From the NCBI GenBank assembly GCA_945888435.1, contig CAMCZW010000016.1, positions 1 through 36,844 of the forward strand: a DNA stretch of 36,844 bases, written 5' to 3'. A model generated the notes under the pieces. That model was not told the origin of the DNA and did no database searches. It saw only the letters and a program-made list of their open reading frames with translations. A program made the position numbers and the translations under genes. Positions 1,879 to 22,955 of the stretch are shown one piece after another (positions within the stretch are counted from its first letter, which is position 1; the number at the start of each line of letters is the position of its first letter). The stretch comes from a bacterium UBP8_UBA817 (GTDB lineage Bacteria > Margulisbacteria > Marinamargulisbacteria > SXXA01 > SICP01).

Positions 1879-3519
1879 TCAGTGAATGGTCTCGCAAAAT
1901 GCGATTTTCTTAACAACGTCTAAATCCAACCTCGTGGCCAAATGCTGATACGCATTGACCTTATGCCCTGCGACTAGATCGCTTTGGAGGCTATCCCATG
2001 TGAGGGGTTGGATATTCAAAAAGGTTTCAACACCTTGTGCGATGTTGGGGATAACCGGTTTTAAGTAGGTGGTTAAGTGCTTGAGTGCGGTGAGACCTGC
2101 GCTGGCTGTTTGGGCGGCGGCGAGGGGGTCGGTTTTGACTTGGTCCCAGGGCGCTTTAGTGTCGATAAATTGATTGGTTTGGTCGGCGAGTTCCATGATG
2201 ACGCGCATGGCTTTGTGGGTTTCTAGTGAGGTGTAGAGAGATTTGATGGTGTCGCTTTGGGCTTTGATATTGGAGATGAGGGCCTCGCCTTCTGGAGTGA
2301 GGGTGGCGATGGTGGCGTCGCATTTTTTGACGAGGATGCTTGCGAGGCGGCTGCCGATATTGATGAGTTTGTTGACGACATCAGCGTTAACGCGATTAAC
2401 GAAATCAGTGAGGTTGAGATCCACGTCCTCGACGGTGTCGCTGAGTTTGGCAGCGTAATAATATCTGAGGAATTCTGGATTCAAGTGCTCAAGATAGGCT
2501 TTTGCTGTGATAAATGTGCCGCGGCTTTTGGACATTTTTTCGCCATTAATCGTTAAAAATCCGTGGACATGAATGTAATCTGGCAATTTAAATTGAGAGA
2601 CTTTGAGCATAGCTGGCCAGAATAAGGCGTGGAAATATAAAATGTCTTTTCCGATAAAATGATGGATTTCGTAGTCCCCATTCCAGAGTTCATCGATGGT
2701 GATGTTATTTTGTTTTCCCCAAGCTTGGGCGTTTGCGATGTAGCCAACTGGGGCATCTAGCCAGACATAAAAATATTTATCTTGAGTGCCGGGGATTTTA
2801 AATCCAAAATACGGCGCGTCCCTAGAGATATCCCAGTCTTTTAGGCCGGCGTCGAACCATTCCCTGAGTTTATTTTTGAGTTCGGGTTTTAATTTTCCGT
2901 TGGTAATAAAGTCTTTTAAAAAGGATTCGAAATCTGACAATTTAAAAAAGTAATGCTCAGATGGTTTGATAATTGGGGTTTGGCCACTGACCGCAGATAC
3001 AGGATTAATGAGATCTTTAGGAGAATAAGTACTTCCGCATTTTTCGCACGAATCACCATATTGGTCGACGGCTTTGCAGGTGGGGCAAGTCCCTTTGACG
3101 AAGCGATCCGGCAAAAACATATTGGCTTCGGGATCATAGAGCTGCTCGATTTCTTTGGCGTAAATGGCGCCGGCATCTTTGGCACGGGTGTAAATGAGCT
3201 CGGAGAGGACTCTGTTTTCGTCGATATTAGTGGAGCCATAATGGCTAAATTCGATGCCAAAGGCTTTGAAGTCGTCGATGTGCTCCTGATGGATTTGGGT
3301 GATGAGTTCTTCGGGAGTTATTCCTCGGGCCTTTGCGGAGAGCATGATGGGCGTGCCATGAGTGTCGTCTGCGCAAATGTAGACGCAGGTGTTTCCAATG
3401 AGTTTTTGAAATCGGACAAAAATATCGGTTTGGATATATTCGACCAAATGGCCTAGGTGGATTTGTCCGTTGGCATAGGGCAATGCGCTAGTAACGAGTA
3501 CTTTTTTGGGAGATGTCAT
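1879..3519 (-). CDS. metG: Methionyl-tRNA synthetase
   Basis: Charges tRNA-Met with methionine in the cytoplasm. The protein opens with the typical [14 protein letters not shown] and has the HIGH-type motif HLGH (residues 21-24). A four-Cys zinc knuckle follows (C145, C148, C158, C161), then KMSKS at 328-332 and an anticodon-binding helical domain. At 546 residues it lacks the C-terminal tRNA-binding domain found in some long MetRS. I chose the ATG at 3519, which overlaps the tyrS stop as ATGA. An in-frame ATG at 3540 would add seven residues (MVKSDPL) that do not look like the family. The pair tyrS-metG is probably co-transcribed and translationally coupled. Confidence 0.97.
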
Positions 3520-4706
3520 GAGGGGATCACTTTTAACCATCGCCGTTTTCCGGCCTTAATAATCGATTCGGCTTTGGGATCAATAAGAGTAAATGGATCA
3601 GTTACTTTTTCCTGATTTACAGAGACTCCCCCTTGGCTGATGAGGCGTTGAGCTTCTTTTTTTGAGACGGCCATTTGGTGAGTAGTGAGAAGATCATCGA
3701 GGCGGGTTGGCGCTTGGAGTGTGGTTTCTGGCATGTCGCTTGGGATTTCTTGATCTGAAAATACTCGGCCAAATTCGGTTTCTGCGTCATTGGCCGCTTG
3801 CTCGGAATGCAGCATCGTGACCATTGTTTTGGCTAATTTGAGTTTAAATTGTTTTGGATTTTCTCCTGTAGTCATGGCGGATTCCATTGCTTTAATTTCG
3901 TCATTACTCACCTGGGTCAGTAGTGAAAAATATCGGGTAATGAGGTGATCTGGAATGGACATCAATTTACCGAACATGTCTTTGGGGACATCTAAAATGG
4001 CGATGTGATTGGCGAGAGATTTACTCATTTTTTGATGACCGTCTAAGCCTTCTAAAATTGGAAGGGTGATGACGCCTTGAGGCTTTTGGCCAAATTCTTT
4101 TTGGAGATGGCGTCCCATGAGAAGGTTAAAAGTTTGATCCGTGCCTCCGATTTCGACATCGTTTTTGAGATGGACAGAATCATAGCCTTGAAGCAATGGA
4201 TATAAAAACTCATGAATAGAAATTGGCTGATTGTTTGAAAAGCGCTTAGTAAAATCGTCTCGTTCTAACATTCTGGCGACAGTGACTCTTGCGGATAACT
4301 GGACCATTTCTTTGGCGCTCAATTTACCTAGCCAATCGCTGTTGTAAACGACGGTGGTTTTGGTTTTATCTAAAATTTTAAATAATTGAACTTGATATGT
4401 TTTGGCATTTTCGATGATTTGAGCCTCATCCAATGGTTTTCTGGTTTCGGATTTTCCGGTGGGATCTCCAATCATAGCGGTAAAGTCGCCAATGATAAAA
4501 ATGACTTGGTGCCCCATTTCTTGTAGAACTCGTAATTTATTGAGGATAACCATATGGCCTAAGTGTAAATCCGGCGCAGAGGGATCTGCCCCAAATTTAA
4601 TGGTCATTTTTTTTTCGGTAAGTTTGCTTAAAAGATCATCTGGAAAGCAAGTCTCTATACCTCTTGAGAGGGGGTCATTGATCATATTATTTTCATTGGG
4701 GGGCAT
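3516..4706 (-). CDS. tyrS: Tyrosyl-tRNA synthetase
   Basis: Charges tRNA-Tyr. The class I signatures are [15 protein letters not shown] (HLGH at 48-51) and KMSKS at 226-230. An S4 RNA-binding domain occupies roughly residues 335-390 ([16 protein letters not shown]). The N-terminus and [10 protein letters not shown] wording match the TyrZ-like (H. influenzae-type) subgroup rather than E. coli TyrS. Length 396 is normal. The start is uncertain between ATG 4706 and ATG 4685 (MINDPLSRG); neither has a clear SD. It is divergent from the PBP gene across a 163-bp gap and overlaps metG by 4 bases. Confidence 0.96.
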
Positions 4707-4730
4707 GTTTTTGGATAAGTTGTGTCATAC

Positions 4731-4759
4731 TTCTATTTTTCCTGTTCAATTGTTACAAT
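4731..4759 (+). promoter_or_regulatory. Putative sigma70-type promoter for the PBP gene
   Basis: TACAAT (4754-4759) is a good -10 with a weak TTCTAT 17 bases upstream (4731-4736). The -10 lies inside a short palindrome, ATTGTTACAAT. It would give a transcript starting near 4766, about 20 bases before the strong Shine-Dalgarno at 4788-4793. The same gap must also hold the tyrS promoter on the other strand, which I could not place. Confidence 0.4.
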
Positions 4760-4787
4760 GAACAGCCCAAAAAAGCATATCAAGGTT

Positions 4788-4793
4788 AGGAGG
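4788..4793 (+). promoter_or_regulatory. Perfect Shine-Dalgarno AGGAGG with no canonical start codon in range
   Basis: AGGAGG stands alone upstream of the PBP gene. No ATG, GTG or TTG follows within 4-14 bases in the PBP frame. The in-frame codons at a usable distance are CTG 4804 and ATT 4807. The frame is open back to a TGA at 4759-4761. This site may mark a non-canonical start that adds ~22 residues to the protein. Confidence 0.5.
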
Positions 4794-4869
4794 CTGGTTC
4801 AAGCTGATTTTTAGAAGTCGCCATTCGATTGGAAAGGTATCAAAACGGTCTCCGAGAGCCGCCGGATCT

Positions 4870-6840
4870 GTGGGTTATGCTCGTCATAAATCCAAGAAAA
4901 AGATGACTCATTTTTTTAGAACGCTCCTTACCTATGGCCTTGGGCTTGGTATTGCTGGCGGCTTAGTTTTATGGGGAACAGTGCTTTATCTTGGGACAAC
5001 CCTCCCTGATATCGATAGCATTAATACATACATCCCCGCAGAAACGACTAAAATCATGTCCCAAGATGGGGTGATTTTGGCGGAACTTCATCGAGAAGAA
5101 AATCGGATTTCAATTCCGATTGATAAAATTTCTCCAATCCTTCAAAAGACAGTTGTGGCCATGGAAGATTCTAGTTTTTATGATCATAACGGACTCGATT
5201 ATTTTGGAATTTTAAGGGCTATTTATAAAGATGTGTTGGCGGGTAGTTTTGTGGAAGGCGGTAGCACGCTGACTCAACAGCTCGCGAAAAACCTCTTTTT
5301 TACCCGTCAAAAAAAGATTACTCGTAAGATCTCTGAAGCCATTATGGCGATCAGAATTGAAAACCATTACACCAAAACCGAAATTTTGGAGATGTACCTT
5401 AATCAAGTGTATTGGGGGCATAATGCGTATGGAATTGAATCGGCTTCCCGATATTATTTTGGAAAAACCGCTCAGGAGTTGTCGCTATCCGAGTCGGCCG
5501 TTCTGGTGGGAATGCTCAGTGGACCTGAACTTTATAGCCCGTATCGTAATTTTAAAGCCTCAAAAAATCGTCAGCGATTAGTCCTTAACCGGATGGTTGA
5601 AACCGGCCTCATTACACGGGAACAGGCGGATGATGCGTATCTGCAAGAGCTTAAGCTTCGTGAGAGGACTAAATTAAGATACAAAGCACCCTATTTCACA
5701 TCTTATATCGTTAAGCAATTAGTCGCGATGTATGGTGAAGAGGCGATCTACACCTCCGGAATGAAGGTGTACACGACCCTTCGATATGATTATCAAAAAG
5801 TCGCGGAAGCAGTGGTTGAAAAGTATGTGGCAGAAGCCCATGGGCCTCTTGAACTAGGCAGCACCGCTAGCCCTAATTTTAGCCAAGCGGCAATTTTAGC
5901 GATTGATCCAACCAATGGATATATTGTCACGATGCACGGCGGTGCCGACTTTTTGGGTAATATGTTTAACCGGACGACTCAAGCCATGCGTCAGCCGGGA
6001 TCGGTATTTAAGCCTTTTGTCTACTTAGCTGCTCTTGCTAAAGGATACACACCTAATTCTCATATCGAGGACAGCCCTGTTACGTTTAGTACATTTCAAG
6101 GACCTTATTCTCCAAAAAACTATACCAATGATTACTCTGGGTCCATTACCTTACGACGTGCGCTTGAAAAATCGGTCAATACTGTTGCCATTAAATTAAA
6201 TCATTCGATTGGCCCAGAAACTGTTGTGGCCACCGCGAGAAAATTAGGCATTACCTCTAAAATTCGCCCTGTATTGTCATTACCGCTCGGCGCCAATGAA
6301 GTTACGATGCTTGAATTGGTATCCGCTTATGGCGTACTGGCCAATGAAGGGTATCGCGTTGAGCCTTTTGGAATCATCCGAATTGAAGACCGAGATGGCG
6401 TTGAACTTTACCGTCATCACCCCGCCCAAGCCCAAGTCTATGATGCCAACTTGATTTCAACCCTTGTCGATATGATGAAAGGGGTCGTCATTAATGGTAC
6501 CGGACAAAATGCCAGACTTCCCCGTCCGATGGCGGGTAAGACAGGGACAACCTCCGATTACCGAGATGCCTGGTTTATTGGATTTATTCCTCAGCTAGTT
6601 GCTGGAACCTGGGTTGGCAACGATGACAACTCACCAATGAATAAAATTACTGGCGGTGGCATCCCAGCCTTAATGTGGCGCGATTTTATGAAAGAAGCCG
6701 TATCTGACATCCCCCCTCGGGACTTTAGGCCTCCACGCGGACTGAGGCCTGTGATTGTGGATAAGACGCGAAAAGAGTCTGAGGCCTCAGAAGCGCCTAA
6801 AAAATCAACCGACAAAGTTATTGAATTTTTTGGAGAGTAA
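4870..6840 (+). CDS. mrcA: Class A penicillin-binding protein (PBP1A family)
   Basis: Bifunctional peptidoglycan glycosyltransferase and transpeptidase anchored in the inner membrane. Counting from GTG 4870: a basic cytoplasmic tail, a single membrane segment near 20-43, then the GT51 domain with the catalytic glutamate in AMEDSSFYDHNG (E99) and GGSTLTQQLAKN (130-141). The transpeptidase has SVFK (S378), SVN (435-437) and KTGTT (557-561). At 656 residues it is short for PBP1A, lacking long inserts, and ends in a basic/acidic tail. The start is unclear. GTG 4870 and ATG 4903 lack SDs, whereas AGGAGG at 4788-4793 points to an upstream in-frame CTG/ATT. trxB follows after 5 bases, so the two are probably one operon. 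Confidence 0.93.
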   Translation: MGYARHKSKKKMTHFFRTLLTYGLGLGIAGGLVLWGTVLYLGTTLPDIDSINTYIPAETTKIMSQDGVILAELHREENRISIPIDKISPILQKTVVAMEDSSFYDHNGLDYFGILRAIYKDVLAGSFVEGGSTLTQQLAKNLFFTRQKKITRKISEAIMAIRIENHYTKTEILEMYLNQVYWGHNAYGIESASRYYFGKTAQELSLSESAVLVGMLSGPELYSPYRNFKASKNRQRLVLNRMVETGLITREQADDAYLQELKLRERTKLRYKAPYFTSYIVKQLVAMYGEEAIYTSGMKVYTTLRYDYQKVAEAVVEKYVAEAHGPLELGSTASPNFSQAAILAIDPTNGYIVTMHGGADFLGNMFNRTTQAMRQPGSVFKPFVYLAALAKGYTPNSHIEDSPVTFSTFQGPYSPKNYTNDYSGSITLRRALEKSVNTVAIKLNHSIGPETVVATARKLGITSKIRPVLSLPLGANEVTMLELVSAYGVLANEGYRVEPFGIIRIEDRDGVELYRHHPAQAQVYDANLISTLVDMMKGVVINGTGQNARLPRPMAGKTGTTSDYRDAWFIGFIPQLVAGTWVGNDDNSPMNKITGGGIPALMWRDFMKEAVSDIPPRDFRPPRGLRPVIVDKTRKESEASEAPKKSTDKVIEFFGE

Positions 6841-6845
6841 TTCTT

Positions 6846-7802
6846 ATGAAACCGATTGAATCAGTTGTTATTATCGGATCTGGACCGGCTGGTCATGCGG
6901 CTGCGATTTATGCAGGACGCGCCCGACTCTCCCCTCTTATGTTTGAAGGTGAAATGGCGGGTGGAGTTGCGGCTGGCGGTCAATTAACCACAACAACGGA
7001 TGTTGAAAACTATCCTGGGTTTCCAAAGGGGATTTCGGGGCCTGAATTGATGATGCTTATGAGAGAGCAATCCGAGCATTCGGATACACGTATTCTTACC
7101 AAAACAGTTGATCGGGTTAATTTTTCAGTAAGTCCGTTTGAGATCGTTGTTGGCGACGACATTGTTTTGGCCAAAACAATCATTGTGGCTACCGGCGCTA
7201 CCGCAAAACGACTTGGGGTTAAAGGGGAAGATCTCTTTTGGCAAAAAGGGGTTTCCGCCTGCGCAGTGTGTGATGGAGGACTTCCTTTATTTCGCAATAA
7301 ACCTTTAATTGTGGTTGGCGGCGGAGATACTGCATGTGAAGAAGCCCATTATCTTACTAAGTTTGCGTCTCATGTCACGATGTTGGTTCGTAAAGACGAG
7401 TTACGTGCATCCAAGACCATGCAGCACCGTGTATTATCAGACCCTAAAATTACCGTTCTTTGGAATACGGAGTTATTAGAAATTATTGGCACAGGATTAA
7501 TGACTCATGCGAAAGTCATTAATAATATTACCCAAGAAGATTCTATTTTGGATGCGAGTGGATTATTTTACGCCATTGGTCACACGCCAAACACTGCATT
7601 TTTAGAGGGTCAGCTAGATCTTGATCCAGCAGGATATATTAAGACAATCCCAGGGTCTACGATGACAAATGTTGACGGCGTTTTTGCGGCTGGCGATGTT
7701 CAGGATCATGTTTACCGACAAGCGATTACATCTGCAGGTACCGGCTGCATGGCGGCCTTAGATGCGGAACGGTTTTTATCGAATAAAGCTCACTCGAGCT
7801 GA
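6846..7802 (+). CDS. trxB: Thioredoxin reductase
   Basis: NADPH-dependent flavoenzyme that reduces thioredoxin. The FAD-binding motif GSGPAGHAAA lies near residues 11-20, the redox pair CAVC at 139-142 and the NADPH-binding motif GGGDTACEEA at about 158-167. A closing GVFAAGDVQD FAD segment follows, then the family ending with an ATSAGTGC-like motif. At 318 residues it is the normal low-molecular-weight type. SD GGAGAG lies about 8 bases before ATG 6846. Its 3' end overlaps the convergent lgt gene by 13 bases. Confidence 0.96.
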   Translation: MKPIESVVIIGSGPAGHAAAIYAGRARLSPLMFEGEMAGGVAAGGQLTTTTDVENYPGFPKGISGPELMMLMREQSEHSDTRILTKTVDRVNFSVSPFEIVVGDDIVLAKTIIVATGATAKRLGVKGEDLFWQKGVSACAVCDGGLPLFRNKPLIVVGGGDTACEEAHYLTKFASHVTMLVRKDELRASKTMQHRVLSDPKITVLWNTELLEIIGTGLMTHAKVINNITQEDSILDASGLFYAIGHTPNTAFLEGQLDLDPAGYIKTIPGSTMTNVDGVFAAGDVQDHVYRQAITSAGTGCMAALDAERFLSNKAHSS

Positions 7803-14921: not shown

Positions 14922-14928
14922 GAGTGAT

Positions 14929-14942
14929 GTTTCACATGAAAC
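14929..14942. promoter_or_regulatory. parS: parS-like site 1, at the rsmG start
   Basis: GTTTCACATGAAAC matches the ParB-binding consensus GTTTCACGTGAAAC at 13 of 14 positions, differing in one central base. It contains the rsmG start codon (14936-14938). The same variant occurs at 17189-17202 and, inverted, at 18873-18886. Confidence 0.75.
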
Positions 14943-15499
14943 CAATAGTTTATTCTGATGCGATTAATCGCTATATTGAATTATTAAAAGAATACAATGA
15001 GACGACGAATATTTATTCGAAATCGGCGTATGATAAATTGGATTTTCATATCCAGGACTGCATTACACTGGCCTCGTTAATTGGTAACCCCACCACCCTA
15101 GTAGACATGGGGTCGGGGTCGGGATTGCCGTCCGCTATCTTGGCGATTATGCATCCTAAGTGCAAAGTGATTGCAGTGGAATCTAAGGGGCGGAAAGCGG
15201 CCTTTTTGAATTTAGTTAAATCAGATTTGGACTTATCTAACTATGAAGTGGCACAAGAAGATATTAATCAATTGATGAGAATGAGGCCTTTGAAACCTCA
15301 TATTATTACTGCGAAGGCATTTGCGCCTTATGATAAAGCCATTGAAATTGCCTCTAAAATAGCGGCGCCTGGATGTGAGCTTTGGATACCAATTAGTCAG
15401 GTCCAGCATGAAGCGCTTTCGGCGATTCCGAAACCTGGATTTAAGCTTGTTAAGGTTGATGGCACTGGATTTTTTTATTTGAAGAAGAAGTGGGTTTAA
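14936..15499 (+). CDS. rsmG: 16S rRNA (guanine-N7) methyltransferase RsmG (GidB)
   Basis: SAM-dependent methylation of a guanine in the 530 loop of 16S rRNA. The SAM motif DMGSGSGLPSAILA lies near residues 57-70, with IAVESKGRKAAFLN after it and the ITAKAFAPYDKAIE segment typical of RsmG. Three in-frame starts are close together. AGGAG (14920-14924) is 11 bases from ATG 14936 but only 2 from ATG 14927, so 14936 (187 residues) is preferred. A parS-like site lies across the start codon, so ParB bound here could also touch rsmG expression. It follows mnmG by 14 bases. Confidence 0.93.
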   Translation: MKPIVYSDAINRYIELLKEYNETTNIYSKSAYDKLDFHIQDCITLASLIGNPTTLVDMGSGSGLPSAILAIMHPKCKVIAVESKGRKAAFLNLVKSDLDLSNYEVAQEDINQLMRMRPLKPHIITAKAFAPYDKAIEIASKIAAPGCELWIPISQVQHEALSAIPKPGFKLVKVDGTGFFYLKKKWV

Positions 15500-15875: not shown

Positions 15876-16823
15876 ATGACTATCAGACAAATACCCTCCA
15901 TACAGAGCCATGCCAAATTTTTTCCATCTAGAGAGAATCGAAGATTAAATCAGGCGATTGATGCCTACAATTCCGCTACCCCCCCCCAGAAGACGTCCAC
16001 CTATCGGCGTCTTCTACAACAGATAATTTCCTACAAAAATAGTCATCCTGGCAGAGCTGAAGAGCTTGATGCCTTAGTTATCCAGCTTAATGCTAAGCAC
16101 CCCTCATCGCCATCGCTTCAAATAGGCGACTCGCTTGATTATCCCACTTATCCAAAGCCTGTATGGGATCTTGCCTTGAATACAAGTCAGGCTATGCCAT
16201 TGACCGGTATAGAATTAGAGAATTTTAAAAAAATTATTCCCCCTCGCCCCACACCACCCAAGCCTCTACCGCAACCCCCTGATTTTGATAAGGATATTCA
16301 CAGGGGAAGGTCAAATTTTTTTGCTAAATCACTTGGTATCCGCCCTGATCATCACATATTAGATGTTGGATGCCGCACAGGACATGGGGCTTATGCATTT
16401 TCTAATCAGGCTGAATTTGTATTAGGGGTTGAAATTGATCTTTCTGAATTAGAGAAGGCAAGAAAAACCTTTCCAGAAACGGATCGCCTACAGTTTACGT
16501 CTCAACGTCTTGAGGATCTGGCAGCTGTTACAGAAAATAAAGGCCGCTTTGATGTGATTACTATATTTTTATGTGATAGCGAATTATGTAACAATAAGTC
16601 CGCTGCCAAGGCTATTTTTGAGCTTTTAAAAAATGGGGGCAGAGTCGTTTTGACTTCTGAATTTACGCTCCCAAAAATCGAAAGTCCAATGTCTAACGTT
16701 TTTTCCAACCATATTATGAGTAACGGAGCCTTCAAGAAAGAGGCCAGCATAGTAGAATGCGTTAATACCTATGAGACCTTTATGCAGTACACATTAACAA
16801 AATCCCCTAACTATGCTTCGTAA
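15876..16823 (+). CDS. Class I SAM-dependent methyltransferase with unrecognised N-terminal half
   Basis: The last ~170 residues form a Rossmann methyltransferase domain: motif I ILDVGCRTGHG at 161-171, the acidic end of strand 2 at GVEID, then FDVITIFLC and NGGRVVLTSE. Residues 1-150 match nothing I know. They are polar, proline-rich near 118-137 (PPRPTPPKPLPQPPDFDKD) and helical before that. The substrate is unknown. AGGAG lies 7 bases before ATG 15876. The gene is bracketed by two MITE-like repeats and sits between rsmG and parB, so it appears inserted into an otherwise conserved block. A short 19-bp tandem repeat follows its stop. Confidence 0.7.
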   Translation: MTIRQIPSIQSHAKFFPSRENRRLNQAIDAYNSATPPQKTSTYRRLLQQIISYKNSHPGRAEELDALVIQLNAKHPSSPSLQIGDSLDYPTYPKPVWDLALNTSQAMPLTGIELENFKKIIPPRPTPPKPLPQPPDFDKDIHRGRSNFFAKSLGIRPDHHILDVGCRTGHGAYAFSNQAEFVLGVEIDLSELEKARKTFPETDRLQFTSQRLEDLAAVTENKGRFDVITIFLCDSELCNNKSAAKAIFELLKNGGRVVLTSEFTLPKIESPMSNVFSNHIMSNGAFKKEASIVECVNTYETFMQYTLTKSPNYAS

Positions 16824-17176: not shown

Positions 17177-17188
17177 TACACCTTTAGC

Positions 17189-17202
17189 GTTTCACATGAA
17201 AC
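17189..17202. promoter_or_regulatory. parS: parS-like site 2, just after the parB stop
   Basis: GTTTCACATGAAAC, identical to site 1 and in the same orientation, one base beyond the 3' end of parB. Confidence 0.75.
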
Positions 17203-17203
17203 A

Positions 17204-18058
17204 CTAACTTAGGTTGAGGGCGTGACAAATTTTTTCGAATTGAGCGGGGGTGGTATATCGGATTTCGATCTTACCCTTATTGGGAGTACCCTTGATTTTG
17301 AAGCGGGCGTCGTAGTGATGAGATAGGACGTCTTCAAGCTCTTTGAAGAGCGCGAGCTGGGTGCCCGCGTCGCCTTTTTGCTGCTTGTGATCGGCGACGG
17401 CTTGCTCGAGCTCTCGGACATTGAGACCTTGAGTTTTGATTTGTTCGAGCTGATTAATCATATCTTCTTCATTATCGAAGGAGAGGAGAGAGCGCGCATG
17501 ACCCTCGCTGATTTCGCCACGCTCTAGGGAATCCTGTATGGATTTTGGGAGCTTGAGGAGACGCAGAGTATTAGTGACTGCGGAACGGCTTTTGCTGAAC
17601 ATATCACCGAGCTCTTGATGGTTGATTTCGAATTCATCGATGAGGCGCTGATAGCCCTTTGCTTCTTCGATGGGATTGAGGTCTTCACGATCTAAGTTTT
17701 CGATGAGGGCGATTTTGAGGGAATCGCGGTCGGTCATCTCTCGGACGATAGCAGGGACTTTATCCATACCTGCGATTTGACAGGCGCGGTAGCGACGCTC
17801 GCCAGCAATGAGCTCATAGCCATTTTTGACTCTGCGAACGATGACGGGCTGGGCGAGGCCGTGATTTTTAATTGATTTGGCGAGATGCTCTAAGGCTTCT
17901 TGGTCGAAGTGGCCTCGGGGCTGATATGGATTTGGGCAGATTTCGGCCACGGGAATATTGATGACCGTTTTTCCTGATGCGAAGTAATTTTTGGGAATTA
18001 AGGCCTCTAGACCCCTTCCTAATTTAGGCATCTCTTTTTTTACTGATACTTCACTCAC
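17204..18058 (-). CDS. parB: Chromosome-partitioning protein ParB (Spo0J)
   Basis: CTP-dependent DNA clamp that loads at parS and spreads to organise the origin region for segregation. The N-terminal LGRGLEALI is the ParA-stimulating peptide. NPYQPRGHFD and GERRYRACQIAG are the CTPase motifs, with ENLDREDLNPIEEA between them and the HTH. The HTH is around ELGDMFSKSRSAVTNTLRLLKLP and a C-terminal dimerisation domain follows. At 284 residues the length is normal. The GTG start at 18058 overlaps the parA stop by 8 bases; ATG 18031 (MPKLGRG) is an alternative. Three parS-like sites lie within 4 kb. Confidence 0.96.
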   Translation of the reverse strand: MSEVSVKKEMPKLGRGLEALIPKNYFASGKTVINIPVAEICPNPYQPRGHFDQEALEHLAKSIKNHGLAQPVIVRRVKNGYELIAGERRYRACQIAGMDKVPAIVREMTDRDSLKIALIENLDREDLNPIEEAKGYQRLIDEFEINHQELGDMFSKSRSAVTNTLRLLKLPKSIQDSLERGEISEGHARSLLSFDNEEDMINQLEQIKTQGLNVRELEQAVADHKQQKGDAGTQLALFKELEDVLSHHYDARFKIKGTPNKGKIEIRYTTPAQFEKICHALNLS

Positions 18059-18815
18059 GATTCATGACCTCCATGGCTAATTGATAATAGGCTTCCGCAC
18101 CCGCTGACTCTGGACTGTAGAGTGCAATTGGGAGCCCGTGGCTAGGCGCTTCTGATAATCGGATATTTCTTGGGATTACGGTTTCGAAAACCAAATCCTT
18201 AAAAAATCGCCTTGTATTATCCACTACCTGACGATTAAGAGTGGTTCTTTGATCATACATGGTTAGGACAATGCCTGAAATTTCTAAATCAGGATTATGG
18301 TAGTTCTTGATCATAGTTAGAGTGCCTACCAATCCGGCGATTCCTTCTAATGCGAAGTATTCACACTGGACGGGGATTAATGCTTTATCTGAGGCGACCA
18401 AGGCATTAAGCGTTAACAATCCCAGGGACGGGGGGCAATCAATAATAATGTAATCATAAAACTCTTTGAGAGGAGACAGGATATTTCGCATGCGGCTTTC
18501 GCGACCCTCTAATGCGACCAGCTCGACTTCGGCACCGGCCAGATCTCGATTGGAAGGGAGAATGTGCAAACGCTCAAAAGGAGTTGGACATAGGACCTGA
18601 TCTAGTTCTGCGTCGCCCATTAATAGATGGTAGACCGACGTGTGAATCTCATCCGGCTTTAACCCAATACCTGAGGTAGCGTTGGCCTGAGGGTCAAAAT
18701 CAACGAGCAGCACGTGCTTACCCGCCTCACTTAAAAATGCGGCAAGGTTGATTGTGGTCGTGGTTTTACCCACCCCACCCTTCTGATTAACAATTGAGAA
18801 AATTCGACATTCCAT
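18051..18815 (-). CDS. parA: Chromosome-partitioning ATPase ParA (Soj)
   Basis: Deviant Walker-A ATPase that drives origin segregation and, in some bacteria, regulates DnaA. KGGVGKTTTTINLAA is at residues 12-26, with LLVDFDPQANATSGIG and the Walker B IIDCPPSLGLLTLNAL. At 254 residues it is the short Soj type without an N-terminal HTH. ATG 18815 has no SD, and a -10-like TATATT ends 7 bases upstream. It overlaps parB by 8 bases and is divergent from the KaiC-like operon. Confidence 0.96.
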   Translation of the reverse strand: MECRIFSIVNQKGGVGKTTTTINLAAFLSEAGKHVLLVDFDPQANATSGIGLKPDEIHTSVYHLLMGDAELDQVLCPTPFERLHILPSNRDLAGAEVELVALEGRESRMRNILSPLKEFYDYIIIDCPPSLGLLTLNALVASDKALIPVQCEYFALEGIAGLVGTLTMIKNYHNPDLEISGIVLTMYDQRTTLNRQVVDNTRRFFKDLVFETVIPRNIRLSEAPSHGLPIALYSPESAGAEAYYQLAMEVMNRE

Positions 18816-18828: not shown

Positions 18829-18872
18829 TCATTTTGCGACCCCGAAAGATAACCAATTTTTTGTGTTCAAAA

Positions 18873-18886
18873 GTTTCATGTGAAAC
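18873..18886. promoter_or_regulatory. parS: parS-like site 3, in the parA/kaiC-like intergenic region
   Basis: GTTTCATGTGAAAC on the plus strand is the exact reverse complement of sites 1 and 2. It lies between the divergent parA and KaiC-like promoters, so bound ParB could influence both. Confidence 0.75.
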
Positions 18887-18913
18887 ATTTTAATCCATTC
18901 ATATAATCACCAT

Positions 18914-18949: not shown

Positions 18950-19660
18950 ATGATTAAAATTCCAAGCGGCGTTGAAGGACTAGATAAATTACTTTCGGGA
19001 GGATTTCCGAAAGGCCGTGGCTATTTGATTGCAGGGGAACCTGGAACCGGAAAAACCATTTTAACGCTTCAGTTTTTGCTTGCCGGCGTCCAGCAGGGAG
19101 AGCGAGTCCTTTTTGTATCCATCGATGAAAAGCCTGAACATATCATTATGGATATGGAATCGTTGGGGTGGAATATCAGACCCCACCTTGAATCTGGCGC
19201 ATTTCAAATTTTAGATGTCACCTCTTACTTTGGAACCTCTGCTCAACGACCAGACTCTATTATCCCTAATGAAAAAGTGGTTGAAGATATTATTGGATTC
19301 ATTAAAAAGTCTGGCGCTACCCGCATCGGAATTGACCCTGTATCCCCTTTGGTATTTGCAGAACGCAAAGTACCTGAAGTCACGGACTATATCCGGAAAC
19401 TAATCTCTTCATTAGAAGACTTACCAAATTGCACGACATTATTAACGTCATATGTTCCGGTTGGATCTGACAAAGTTAGCCAACATGGGATTGAGGAATT
19501 TGCAGCCTCTGGAATTATCTTATTAAGATTTGCTCGAGTTCATAATAAAAATATTCGGACCATTTGGGTGCGAAAAATGAGAGGAACTCGTATTGACCTC
19601 TCTGAATACAGCTTTGAGATCCTGCCAGAACGGGGCGTTGTGCTGAGACAGCCAATTTAG
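18950..19660 (+). CDS. Single-domain KaiC-like (RecA-superfamily) ATPase
   Basis: A 236-residue protein in the KaiC/RadA-like group. IKIPSGVEGLDKLLSGGFPKG is the usual KaiC entry, with Walker A GEPGTGKT at 29-36. VLFVSIDEKPEHI has the acidic pair D59-E60 at the KaiC catalytic glutamate position, so one Glu is retained. Walker B lies near IGIDPVSPLVF. It ends with a FEILPERGVVL strand like KaiC modules. It is not a circadian KaiC, since it has one domain and no kaiA/kaiB are seen. ATG 18950 is chosen; an upstream in-frame start at 18914 overlaps the promoter. The next gene begins 4 bases later, so the two are one operon. Confidence 0.85.
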   Translation: MIKIPSGVEGLDKLLSGGFPKGRGYLIAGEPGTGKTILTLQFLLAGVQQGERVLFVSIDEKPEHIIMDMESLGWNIRPHLESGAFQILDVTSYFGTSAQRPDSIIPNEKVVEDIIGFIKKSGATRIGIDPVSPLVFAERKVPEVTDYIRKLISSLEDLPNCTTLLTSYVPVGSDKVSQHGIEEFAASGIILLRFARVHNKNIRTIWVRKMRGTRIDLSEYSFEILPERGVVLRQPI

Positions 19661-19664
19661 GCCC

Positions 19665-20786
19665 ATGGCGACGATTTTAGTAGTCGATGACGATGCTCAT
19701 ATTAGAACATTAGCGGAAGCCATTTTTAAGTCGGCTGGGTATGATGTTGTTTTGGCCGCAGATGGTGTTGAGGGAGTCGACCAAGCTTTCAAGTTTTTAC
19801 CTGATTTGATTTTAACGGATATCAACATGCCCAATAAAAATGGGTTTGAACTTTGCAAACAAATTCGGCAATCAGATGAACTTAAACACACACCCCTCAT
19901 CATGGTGTCGGCGATGGGCGATGATTACAATAAACTCACCGGATTTGATGAAGGGGCCGATGACTATGTCACCAAGCCATTTAATATTGAGGAATTAAAA
20001 GCACGCGCGAAATCTTTGCTGGCACGGCACCGTCGTACGGAACCGGCTCCGAGGATTATTGTCGACCCAATTCTTGAACCCGAAATCGTTTCTCATCTTG
20101 ATTTTATCCCGACGGGAATCCCTAGTCTGGATGATTGCTTGTCCGGAGGATTGCCTCGTGGATCTAATATTTTGCTAGTTGGCCCAATTGGAAGCGGAAA
20201 ATCGAGCTTTTCGAGACAGTTTATGATTAACGGTCTTTTGGCCAACGATCCATGCTTGTTTGTGGCGCTGGATGACTCTCCTCAATTAATCCAGAAGCAA
20301 TTTTCACAAGCCCTCCCCCACTCTATGACGGATTATGAGAACTCCTCTAATTTTAGACTGGTGGATGCCTATTCGTGGTCTACGATGCTACCTTCTCAGG
20401 ATCATGAGCGGTTTTCGCTGACGGGGACTTTGGACTTGAATCAATTGTCTGGGGCAATTTCGGATGCGGGTAATGAACTGGGGCAGTCTGTTCAGAAAAA
20501 ACGAGGCGGACGACGTGTGATTGATTCGATTTCCAGCTTATTGGTTCATTTTGAATTACCGGCGGTGCAGCGCTTTATTTCTCAGATTGCGAGGACTTCG
20601 CTGGCGTTTGGAGATGTGACGACTTTGTTTGTTTTGGAACAAGGGACAGCGTCAGATCAGGTGTTGAATAATATTAAGTATTTGATGGATGGCGTGATTG
20701 AATTTGATCAGCAGGAAGGACGGAGAGCCGTGCGCGTTGCCTCCATGAAATGGGTACGCTCTAATCCTGAATGGCAGTGGATGTAA
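19665..20786 (+). CDS. Response-regulator receiver domain fused to a KaiC-like ATPase
   Basis: Residues 1-124 are a CheY-like receiver: acidic pocket DDD at 8-10, phosphoacceptor D52 in LTDINMPN, S82 and K104 in YVTKPF. After a short linker, residues ~145-373 form a KaiC-like module: TGIPSLDDCLSGGLPRG, Walker A GPIGSGKSS (173-181) and a Walker B-like RRVIDSISSLL. Where KaiC has catalytic glutamates this protein has LDDSP (D203-D204), so hydrolysis may be weak or absent. The likely logic is a phosphorylation-controlled ATPase acting with the upstream KaiC-like protein, but the kinase and output are not in the window. The 3' end overlaps the convergent LysR gene by 26 bases. Confidence 0.85.
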   Translation: MATILVVDDDAHIRTLAEAIFKSAGYDVVLAADGVEGVDQAFKFLPDLILTDINMPNKNGFELCKQIRQSDELKHTPLIMVSAMGDDYNKLTGFDEGADDYVTKPFNIEELKARAKSLLARHRRTEPAPRIIVDPILEPEIVSHLDFIPTGIPSLDDCLSGGLPRGSNILLVGPIGSGKSSFSRQFMINGLLANDPCLFVALDDSPQLIQKQFSQALPHSMTDYENSSNFRLVDAYSWSTMLPSQDHERFSLTGTLDLNQLSGAISDAGNELGQSVQKKRGGRRVIDSISSLLVHFELPAVQRFISQIARTSLAFGDVTTLFVLEQGTASDQVLNNIKYLMDGVIEFDQQEGRRAVRVASMKWVRSNPEWQWM

Positions 20787-21690
20787 GCTCTTCAAATGCC
20801 TCCATCACTAACCCCCTCAACCACTGGTGAGCCGGACTTGCGTCCGTCCGTCGATGCCAAAGACACTTCACTGGCATTGCTTTCAATGGAAAAGGCGCTT
20901 TAAACACCCGCAACGGAAAGTGTGCGGCAAAGATATCTGCTGTGCGACTAGTCGTGGTCGCTATGAGGTCTGTCTGAGACACCGCAATCGGCATCGATAA
21001 ATAATACGGAACCTTCAGAACGATATTTCGCATCACCCCCAAGTCAGCCAACCCTTGATTAACCGATCCATTTGCCCCATCCTCCACCCGAACCGCCACA
21101 TGCCGCTCCTTGAGATACATTTTAGTCGTTAGTCGATTTTTAATTCTGGGATGATGAGCACTCACCAAAACAACGCAACGATCATCAAATAGTACCGCCT
21201 CGTGAAAATGTTCCGGGGTTTGATCCATATAAAACCCCAGGATCAAATCAACTTGGTCTATCTGTGATGGATCATTAAGCGTCGACCAAGGCAATATCTC
21301 AAATGTGATGCCAGAGCAACCCACTGGCATCCTTCTCATAATTTCAGGCAAGAGCACCGCGCTAGAATAGTCCGACATAATCACTTTAAATATAATGGCA
21401 TCGCATTTGGGATCAAAGACCAAAGGGCAAGCGAGTATCGACCCCAGCTCTTTCAAAATGGGACGAATCTGCTCTGCCAGTTTCAACGCAACAGGGGTCG
21501 GAACCAGCCCCTTTTCCCCAGGAACCAGCAACGGGTCTGAAAATAATTTCCGCAACGATTTAAGCGCCACACTCATCGCAGGTTGAGTTACACCAACCTT
21601 CTTTGCGGCATGAGACACATGACGCTCCTCAATCAAGGCCCTGAAATAAACGAGCAAATTAAGGTTAACCGACTGAAGTGGAAATGTCAT
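20761..21690 (-). CDS. LysR-family transcriptional regulator
   Basis: The N-terminal winged HTH (NLNLLVYFRALIEERHVSHAAKKVGVTQPAMSVALKSLRKLF) is the standard LysR domain. A linker helix and a substrate-binding-like domain to residue ~300 follow. At 309 residues it is normal. The ligand is unknown. It resembles the NodD/SyrM-like subgroup in its HTH wording, which I note without certainty. LysR regulators commonly control a divergent neighbour, here the unrecognised gene at 21792; the AT-rich 101-bp gap with TATAAT-like stretches would hold the operator. It has no SD before ATG 21690. Confidence 0.9.
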   Translation of the reverse strand: MTFPLQSVNLNLLVYFRALIEERHVSHAAKKVGVTQPAMSVALKSLRKLFSDPLLVPGEKGLVPTPVALKLAEQIRPILKELGSILACPLVFDPKCDAIIFKVIMSDYSSAVLLPEIMRRMPVGCSGITFEILPWSTLNDPSQIDQVDLILGFYMDQTPEHFHEAVLFDDRCVVLVSAHHPRIKNRLTTKMYLKERHVAVRVEDGANGSVNQGLADLGVMRNIVLKVPYYLSMPIAVSQTDLIATTTSRTADIFAAHFPLRVFKAPFPLKAMPVKCLWHRRTDASPAHQWLRGLVMEAFEELTSTAIQD

Positions 21691-21791
21691 TTTAATAAAA
21701 AAATCATATAATAATTATACTTTCTATTAATTTTTAATATTAGTCAATTAAAAATAAAATGATCCTAAGTTTATCCTAGGAGAGTTTATTC

Positions 21792-22955
21792 ATGAGTGCT
21801 TCAGTTCCCACAATCAGTTCTATTCGATATCAAGCTCAGCTATTGGAGCTTCCCAGTTCAGCAGTAAGACAAGCTTCACCCACCCCAATTCTACAATTCC
21901 CCACAATCTCTCCGCCATTCAATATACTTACTTCACATTTCCAAACCGCCAGAACCGATGCTGAAACCATCATGTCCATGACCCCCGTTCCACAGAATTT
22001 ATTTTTAACTGAAGGGAAAACCCCTCTAGAAGCCCGCCTTCTCACCGTCGGAAAAGAAATCCATGATGCAGCTAAAGACGCCTATACCCGAATTGCCCAA
22101 ATGATCCTATTAATCAAGAATCCACAGTCGACACTTCTGGGGATATCAGAGATCGCGATCCAGGAGGCAAAAACAGTGGTTTTTAAAGCCATCGACTCGA
22201 TCGGACCTACTCATGGTGGAGTGGTGGCTCGACTGTCGATCACGATGATCGGGATCATTCATCGAAGCATTAATGACGCTACACTCTCCGATGACATATC
22301 AGGCCCTGCCCTTAAGGCTATTCAAAGTTACCTCAAAATTCTAATGAGCGAATTCCCACCAAAAGGAAAAGAGATCATGATGACATTTACTGATGTTTAC
22401 GAGGATACCTTAAGCAACGTGAGCAAGTCTGACGCCATGAAAGCCTCTGAAAAATTTGAGATGATCAAAATATTGTGGGAAGATCCCCTCTATTTTTCAG
22501 GAGATCTCACCCATATTATGAAACTAAATGAACATCTGCAAACGGCAGCGGCTCTACTTGGAGTTAAAGAAGTAAGTGAAAGCCCACGAAATCCACACCA
22601 TATCACTCCTCATATCTGTCTGTTGAACGAGGCCCTAACACAACTCAAATTGGCAGTTGGAGCCTCCGATACGGAAGCACCTCCCGCTCATATTCGAGGC
22701 ATCGAGGGAAATTCCCAGATCATCACATCAGCGGTTGCCGTCCTCAAATCCCATGGACAACCCGCCATTTCAGAAACGGATCGAATACGGAGTTTGGCTG
22801 GTACTGAGATATGGGAGCTCACCGCTAATTTTAGAACGGCCTTTTTATCAGGATTAATTGTTGCCAGCGGAGGCCCTACGAAAATAAAAAGACCAGCCCC
22901 TGTTTATTCCCGTCCATGTCATCGGAGAAATATGCCACAACGAAGAGGCTCATGA
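21792..22955 (+). CDS. Unrecognised helical protein, C-terminus altered by a frameshift
   Basis: I do not recognise this protein. It is 387 residues as read, with a polar proline-rich N-terminus, then mostly amphipathic helices with no membrane segment or signal peptide. The last ~21 residues are out of character (Pro/Arg/Cys-rich, ending RRNMPQRRGS). The reading frame one base over continues as good coding sequence from 22891 to a TAA at 23116-23118, giving 75 residues. One fewer A in the AAAAA at 22886-22890 would join them into a 441-residue protein. CTAGGAGAG precedes ATG 21792 by 11 bases. It is divergent from LysR, its likely regulator. Confidence 0.6.
   Translation: MSASVPTISSIRYQAQLLELPSSAVRQASPTPILQFPTISPPFNILTSHFQTARTDAETIMSMTPVPQNLFLTEGKTPLEARLLTVGKEIHDAAKDAYTRIAQMILLIKNPQSTLLGISEIAIQEAKTVVFKAIDSIGPTHGGVVARLSITMIGIIHRSINDATLSDDISGPALKAIQSYLKILMSEFPPKGKEIMMTFTDVYEDTLSNVSKSDAMKASEKFEMIKILWEDPLYFSGDLTHIMKLNEHLQTAAALLGVKEVSESPRNPHHITPHICLLNEALTQLKLAVGASDTEAPPAHIRGIEGNSQIITSAVAVLKSHGQPAISETDRIRSLAGTEIWELTANFRTAFLSGLIVASGGPTKIKRPAPVYSRPCHRRNMPQRRGS

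Follow-up and report, generated by a model that had tools for sequence, protein, structure and literature searches.

A receiver-KaiC fusion paired with a KaiC-type ATPase in Margulisbacteria points to a signalling switch rather than to a circadian clock or a segregation device

What is the role of two adjacent bacterial genes that encode KaiC-like ATPases, one of them fused to a two-component receiver, when these genes lie next to a chromosome partition operon? The question is raised by a Margulisbacteria genome (1.36 Mb in 27 contigs), and more precisely by contig C16, whose 36,844 nucleotides were analysed as a whole and are called here the window. On its forward strand, kaiC1 (18950-19660, ATG start at 18950) encodes a single-domain KaiC-like ATPase of 236 amino acids (MIKIPSG...). 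It is followed after 4 bases, on the same strand, by rec-kaiC (19665-20786), whose product of 373 amino acids is made up of a CheY-like receiver and a KaiC-like domain. A preliminary description of the locus had reported this arrangement, with an acidic pair D59-E60 in the first protein and D203-D204 in the second, and the coordinates, the Pfam matches and the residues all agree with it. It had also proposed that the fusion has lost catalytic glutamates, that the two proteins form a regulatory hetero-oligomer and that the operon might be linked to segregation or the cell cycle.

Both proteins belong to the KaiC/RecA-like ATPase superfamily (PF06745) by score, Walker A, Walker B and fold. KaiC1 matches the KaiC family with an E value of 8e-60 (202.5 bits for a cut-off of 26.6). 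It carries a Walker A motif G29EPGTGKT36, a Walker B aspartate D129 and an intact K-x-R trans motif (K209-M-R211). Its AlphaFold2 monomer (pLDDT 84) is nearest to KaiC CI and to a designed KaiC, with TM scores of about 0.72-0.81 by query length. In REC-KaiC, a Response_reg domain (residues 4-115, E 1e-28) is joined by a linker (about 127-143, of low confidence in the model) to a PF06745 domain (residues 148-361, E 2e-30, 106.3 bits for the same cut-off of 26.6). The ATPase domain has a Walker A motif GPIGSGKS and a Walker B aspartate D287, and S360-M-K362-W363 replaces the K-x-R trans motif. The model (pLDDT 83.5) is nearest to PH0284, with a TM score of 0.78 by target length. The receiver had been described as complete on the basis of D52, S82 and K104. 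These residues are found together with D8 and D9, so that the acidic pocket, the phosphoacceptor aspartate, the S/T and the lysine of a response regulator are all there, each conserved in at least 90% of the orthologues.

The two proteins differ in their acidic pair. A catalytic E-E pair is a mark of canonical KaiC (PMC5520375, PMC6989803). Aligned with solved KaiC and RecA, D59-E60 of KaiC1 (context FVSIDEKPEH) and D203-D204 of REC-KaiC (context FVALDDSPQL) both fall on this pair, and neither protein has E-E. This excludes a canonical, cyanobacterial-type KaiC, but not membership of the KaiC/RecA-like superfamily. It is the leading residue of the pair that corresponds to the catalytic glutamate of RecA, and this residue is an aspartate in KaiC1 and REC-KaiC alike. 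The contrast between the two proteins therefore lies at the second position only. Hence, the idea of lost catalytic glutamates stands as a D-E versus D-D contrast but not as a loss unique to REC-KaiC, and KaiC1 may itself be slow because of its first aspartate. Published mutants give an idea of what such changes may do. Replacing E by Q at both glutamate pairs of KaiC3 abolishes the ATPase (PMC6989803), and RecA E96D keeps ATP binding with a changed hydrolysis (PMC5240526). By analogy, a protein that binds ATP and hydrolyses it poorly is plausible in this fold, although proteins that carry D-D or D-E naturally may have adapted to it. REC-KaiC probably behaves in this way, since D-D is combined with S-x-K in place of the trans K-x-R.

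Does the operon encode a clock? In KaiC1, E182-E183 align with the KaiC phosphosites, and the matching positions of REC-KaiC are not S/T. KaiB (PF07689) is absent from this genome and is found in only 1 of 56 Margulisbacteria genomes. The genome has no two-domain KaiC either, its other PF06745 matches being RadA and RecA. Thus, the KaiC-fold ATPase is all that is shared with the KaiABC circadian clock, which is ruled out because KaiB, a two-domain KaiC and the phosphosites are all missing. A reduced KaiC timer or clock would fit the superfamily of both ATPases and the structural closeness of KaiC1 to the KaiC CI ring, yet the same absences make it extremely unlikely. Hence kaiC genes in non-cyanobacterial bacteria need not mean a clock. 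In a genome of family f21 (L118 = G031:C58, L109), KaiB is encoded next to a KaiC-type sequence, apart from the KaiC1/REC-KaiC pair.

The pairing itself is conserved. Of the 56 genomes, 26 encode a full-length orthologue of REC-KaiC, the remaining matches of the search being ordinary receivers or distant forms, and in all 26 carriers a KaiC gene is directly adjacent to rec-kaiC. In one of them (G014), rec-kaiC is split over two contigs and kaiC1 lies beside its 5' part. Most of these gene pairs are separated by -4 to +5 bases. KaiC1 matches below 1e-15 occur in 27 genomes, namely the same 26 and G015, in which a lone KaiC1 (D-Q) follows ruvCA with no adjacent REC-KaiC. Acidic pairs are strongly maintained, D59-E60 being unchanged in 20 KaiC1 proteins and D203-D204 invariant in the 26 REC-KaiC orthologues. 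In the latter, the P-loop and Walker B are also invariant or nearly so, and the trans-motif position reads S/H/T/N-x-K-W, never K-x-R. We regard the composition and the conservation of the module as established, as well as its two-component character in terms of domain content and receiver residues. The pairing announced in the preliminary description thus recurs in all the Margulisbacteria carriers, and D-D is a conserved signature. In one relative, L089, REC-KaiC keeps a glutamate (D-E) and KaiC1 has D-V. The genome of L089 has a second KaiC1-like gene (D-E) elsewhere, beside clpB, and an additional KaiC-like gene, this one with D-D, is present in G058.

It is highly improbable that D-D reflects nothing more than the decay of a paralogue that had become redundant. 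Changes from E to D at catalytic positions could be read in this way, and family f7 really is decaying. Its pair is strongly diverged, with D-K in KaiC1 and E-T or E-P in REC-KaiC, it lies beside purA in two of three genomes, and in G010 the P-loop lysine of REC-KaiC is gone. However, D203-D204 and many other positions do not vary among the 26 orthologues, which share about 50-60% identity. D-D is also found in Planctomycetota and in most Myxococcota-type relatives.

In Marinamargulisbacteria (f19, f23), the cluster has three genes, encoding a KaiC (K-S or K-D), a REC-KaiC (D-D) and a further KaiC (E-E). This trio (L048-L051, L055, L056) adjoins a divergent gene for FapA (flagellar assembly/beta-solenoid) and is followed downstream by hisZ, hisG, a gene of the EPSP synthase family and hisD. 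A link with motility was rejected, since neither flagellin nor, at the threshold used, PilT was detected in the genome of the window.

Is the operon part of the segregation machinery? On the reverse strand, parA (18051-18815) is the divergent neighbour of kaiC1, with parB (17204-18058) behind it. A parS-like 16-mer, AGTTTCATGTGAAACA (18872-18887, forward strand, 2 mismatches), lies between parA and kaiC1, as had been noted. The window contains three sites of this kind (14928-14943, 17188-17203 and 18872-18887; 0.01 expected), and these palindromes cluster near rsmG-parB-parA, as expected around parAB. TATAAT at 18902-18907 (forward strand) is a candidate -10 box of the operon by consensus match only, and the -35-like hexamer of the candidate kaiC1 promoter (18880-18885) overlaps the parS-like site. 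The count of promoter-like sites in the region shows no clear excess over shuffles.

A single regulatory unit for segregation or the cell cycle, formed by ParAB/parS with KaiC1/REC-KaiC, would account for this overlap and for the divergent parA found in seven genomes of three families (f1, f11, f13). Nevertheless, we consider it very unlikely. Among the 22 informative loci, parA is adjacent in 7 only, and a segregation role is not supported for this reason. In the 15 other genomes with a readable upstream gene, the neighbour is not parA (a contig end is reached in 4 more); the neighbours there include purA, ruvCA and fapA/hisZG. Indeed, purA is a more widespread neighbour than parAB (f1, f7, f8, f11, f13, f14). 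Nor is the position of parS kept. In the relatives, parS sites lie inside parA, rec-kaiC, parB or mnmG, or beside rsmG, and none of the parA-adjacent relatives has parS between parA and kaiC1, in the kaiC1 promoter. The parAB/parS linkage of a ParABS partition unit is thus not conserved around the pair, and in other phyla histidine-kinase genes lie with it. The suggested tie to segregation or the cell cycle falls, and we regard the independence of the module from clock and segregation machinery as established. Overall, the evidence points to a signalling switch, previously undescribed, rather than to a circadian clock or a segregation device.

Several smaller features of the neighbourhood may be recorded. 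In relatives of family f13, the rec-kaiC gene itself contains a parS that is perfect or nearly so. In sister genomes G001 and G002, purA directly follows rec-kaiC and rsmG and parB are adjacent. In the window, two genes stand between rec-kaiC and purA (within 20761-22955): one for a regulator of LysR type, which resembles BsrA/LelA/LeuO at scores below the cut-offs, and one for a 387-residue protein with zero Pfam or NCBIfam matches. A 315-residue protein with a C-terminal methyltransferase domain (15876-16823) lies between rsmG and parB.

Related operons occur in other phyla, a distribution that is a lower bound because the contig scan used two peptide patterns. MAGs of Myxococcota/"Deltaproteobacteria" encode KaiC1 (D-E) with REC-KaiC (D-D), and in all the sampled Myxococcota-type loci the two genes are adjacent with near-zero spacing. 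At several of these loci, the pair is followed by a gene for a receiver/HATPase protein and then by that of ClpB; in L084 and its relatives, a REC-HATPase gene lies next to rec-kaiC. L155, with D-E/D-S, is an exception to the acidic pattern. In Planctomycetota (L081/L082, L189/L190), a histidine kinase and a receiver are encoded with REC-KaiC (D-D), L081/L082 having PAS-HisKA-HATPase kinases and a lone receiver next to it and L189/L190 showing this gene order by sequence. None of these four loci has an adjacent KaiC, and in two of the genomes no stand-alone KaiC is evident. Hence, a hetero-oligomer is not obligatory everywhere, and a D-D REC-KaiC can do without KaiC1, at least there.

The Planctomycetota loci bear on the physical relationship of the two proteins. 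REC-KaiC alone might be a phosphorylation-controlled ATP-binding oligomer, with KaiC1 as an ATPase of the same operon that is linked to it in function but stays physically apart. These loci without KaiC1 speak for such an arrangement, and so does the age of the two ATPase domains, which are old, separate clades. In a tree obtained by a short search, with long branches flagged by the program, the ATPase domains of REC-KaiC group in a single clade apart from KaiC1 (SH-aLRT 100). The arrangement remains rather unlikely in view of the strict adjacency and near-zero spacing in the 26 Margulisbacteria carriers and in all the sampled Myxococcota-type loci, and of a strong covariation of distances. 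Once RecA distances are regressed out, pairwise KaiC1 and REC-KaiC distances give a partial r of 0.93 over 22 genomes, of 0.72 without f7, and of 0.53 without f7 and the genome of L089. The permutation p value is 0.0005 in each case; the only control is RecA, an imperfect one, and chromosomal adjacency may add to these values. In f7, the two proteins have both diverged far, and together, a joint decay that also argues against separate action. At the level of sequences, the covariation supports what would be expected of partners.

We come back to a mixed assembly. With a probability of about one half, kaiC1-rec-kaiC encodes the output module of a two-component system, made up of KaiC-type ATPases that most likely form a mixed oligomer, which is probably a ring like that of KaiC. 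Both the mixed oligomer and a weak hydrolysis by REC-KaiC are suggested by residue conservation, pairing and covariation, and phosphorylation would gate the complex. REC-KaiC would be a response regulator with an ATP-binding domain of KaiC/RecA fold as its output domain, and KaiC1 the stand-alone KaiC-type ATPase from the same operon with which it would assemble. KaiC1 would bring a glutamate-containing acidic pair (D-E) and an intact trans K-x-R, and REC-KaiC would hold ATP via its conserved P-loop, with D-D and S-x-K giving slow or zero turnover. A histidine kinase would phosphorylate D52, thereby altering assembly of the complex or ATP turnover, and a downstream partner would read the ATP state of the complex. 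No histidine kinase gene lies beside the operon in this genome, which encodes several such kinases, at C19:8435, C9:26901 and C1:36104 for example. Some of the kinase genes elsewhere in the genome have no neighbouring regulator, among them that of a HAMP-PAS-HisKA-HATPase protein.

A more specific version can be put forward only tentatively. It supposes a heteromeric KaiC-type ring in which, for each operon, only one kind of subunit has a glutamate in the acidic pair, the receiver subunit being an ATP-binding, hydrolysis-poor regulator, so that two-component phosphorylation would set the state of a RecA-fold ATPase. D-E/D-D is the rule for KaiC1/REC-KaiC, next to the patterns of the Marinamargulisbacteria trios, of L089 and of f7. 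The pattern is not rigid, because of L089 and L155, and a strict rule of exactly one glutamate per operon is only suggestive given the second D-E gene in the genome of L089, the second D-D gene of G058 and the broken P-loop in f7.

Known KaiC-type systems resemble the module in part. Single-domain ATPases of the KaiC superfamily (PF06745; PH0284 2dr3, KaiC CI 4tlb) share the fold, the P-loop and Walker B, and the K-x-R trans motif is kept in KaiC1; in contrast, the pair has D-E or D-D instead of E-E, a receiver fusion and a consistent pairing in Margulisbacteria. The iKaiC families (MEDS, PF14417; DUF7504, PF24336) also have altered catalytic residues, and REC-KaiC passes the DUF7504 cut-off (31.2 versus 27 bits). 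However, its P-loop and Walker B are conserved, PF06745 is a far better match (106 bits) and MEDS gives none. Archaeal KaiC-like ATPases have been proposed to be signalling hubs (Makarova 2017, as cited in PMC5847659), and six genera of Methanosarcinaceae carry KaiC-REC fusions (PMC5847659). These fusions likewise join a KaiC-type ATPase to a phosphoacceptor receiver, a likeness by description, whereas the receiver of the present module lies at the N-terminus, its hosts are bacterial and a second KaiC is paired. No description of the bacterial paired form was found in the open-licence literature searched, and a route by which two-component phosphorylation feeds into KaiC-like ATPases is, as far as we found, not established. 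In the module, a KaiC domain bears the receiver directly, and the protein is paired with a KaiC-type ATPase whose catalytic residues differ. The module is thus a small, expressible system for asking whether receiver phosphorylation controls KaiC-type assembly.

Finally, some genes around the relatives in other phyla may be noted. In Myxococcota-type MAGs, clpB lies behind the kaiC1/rec-kaiC/kinase operon at L084 and L086, and at L131 behind a lone KaiC1-like gene whose C-terminus is extended. In L081, from a Brocadiales MAG, the gene at 3357-6995, directly upstream of the receiver and REC-KaiC, encodes a fusion of an ammonium transporter with PAS-HisKA-HATPase and receivers, and in L082 a protoglobin-PAS kinase occupies the same place. 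These kinases suggest that the module receives nitrogen and gas/redox signals.
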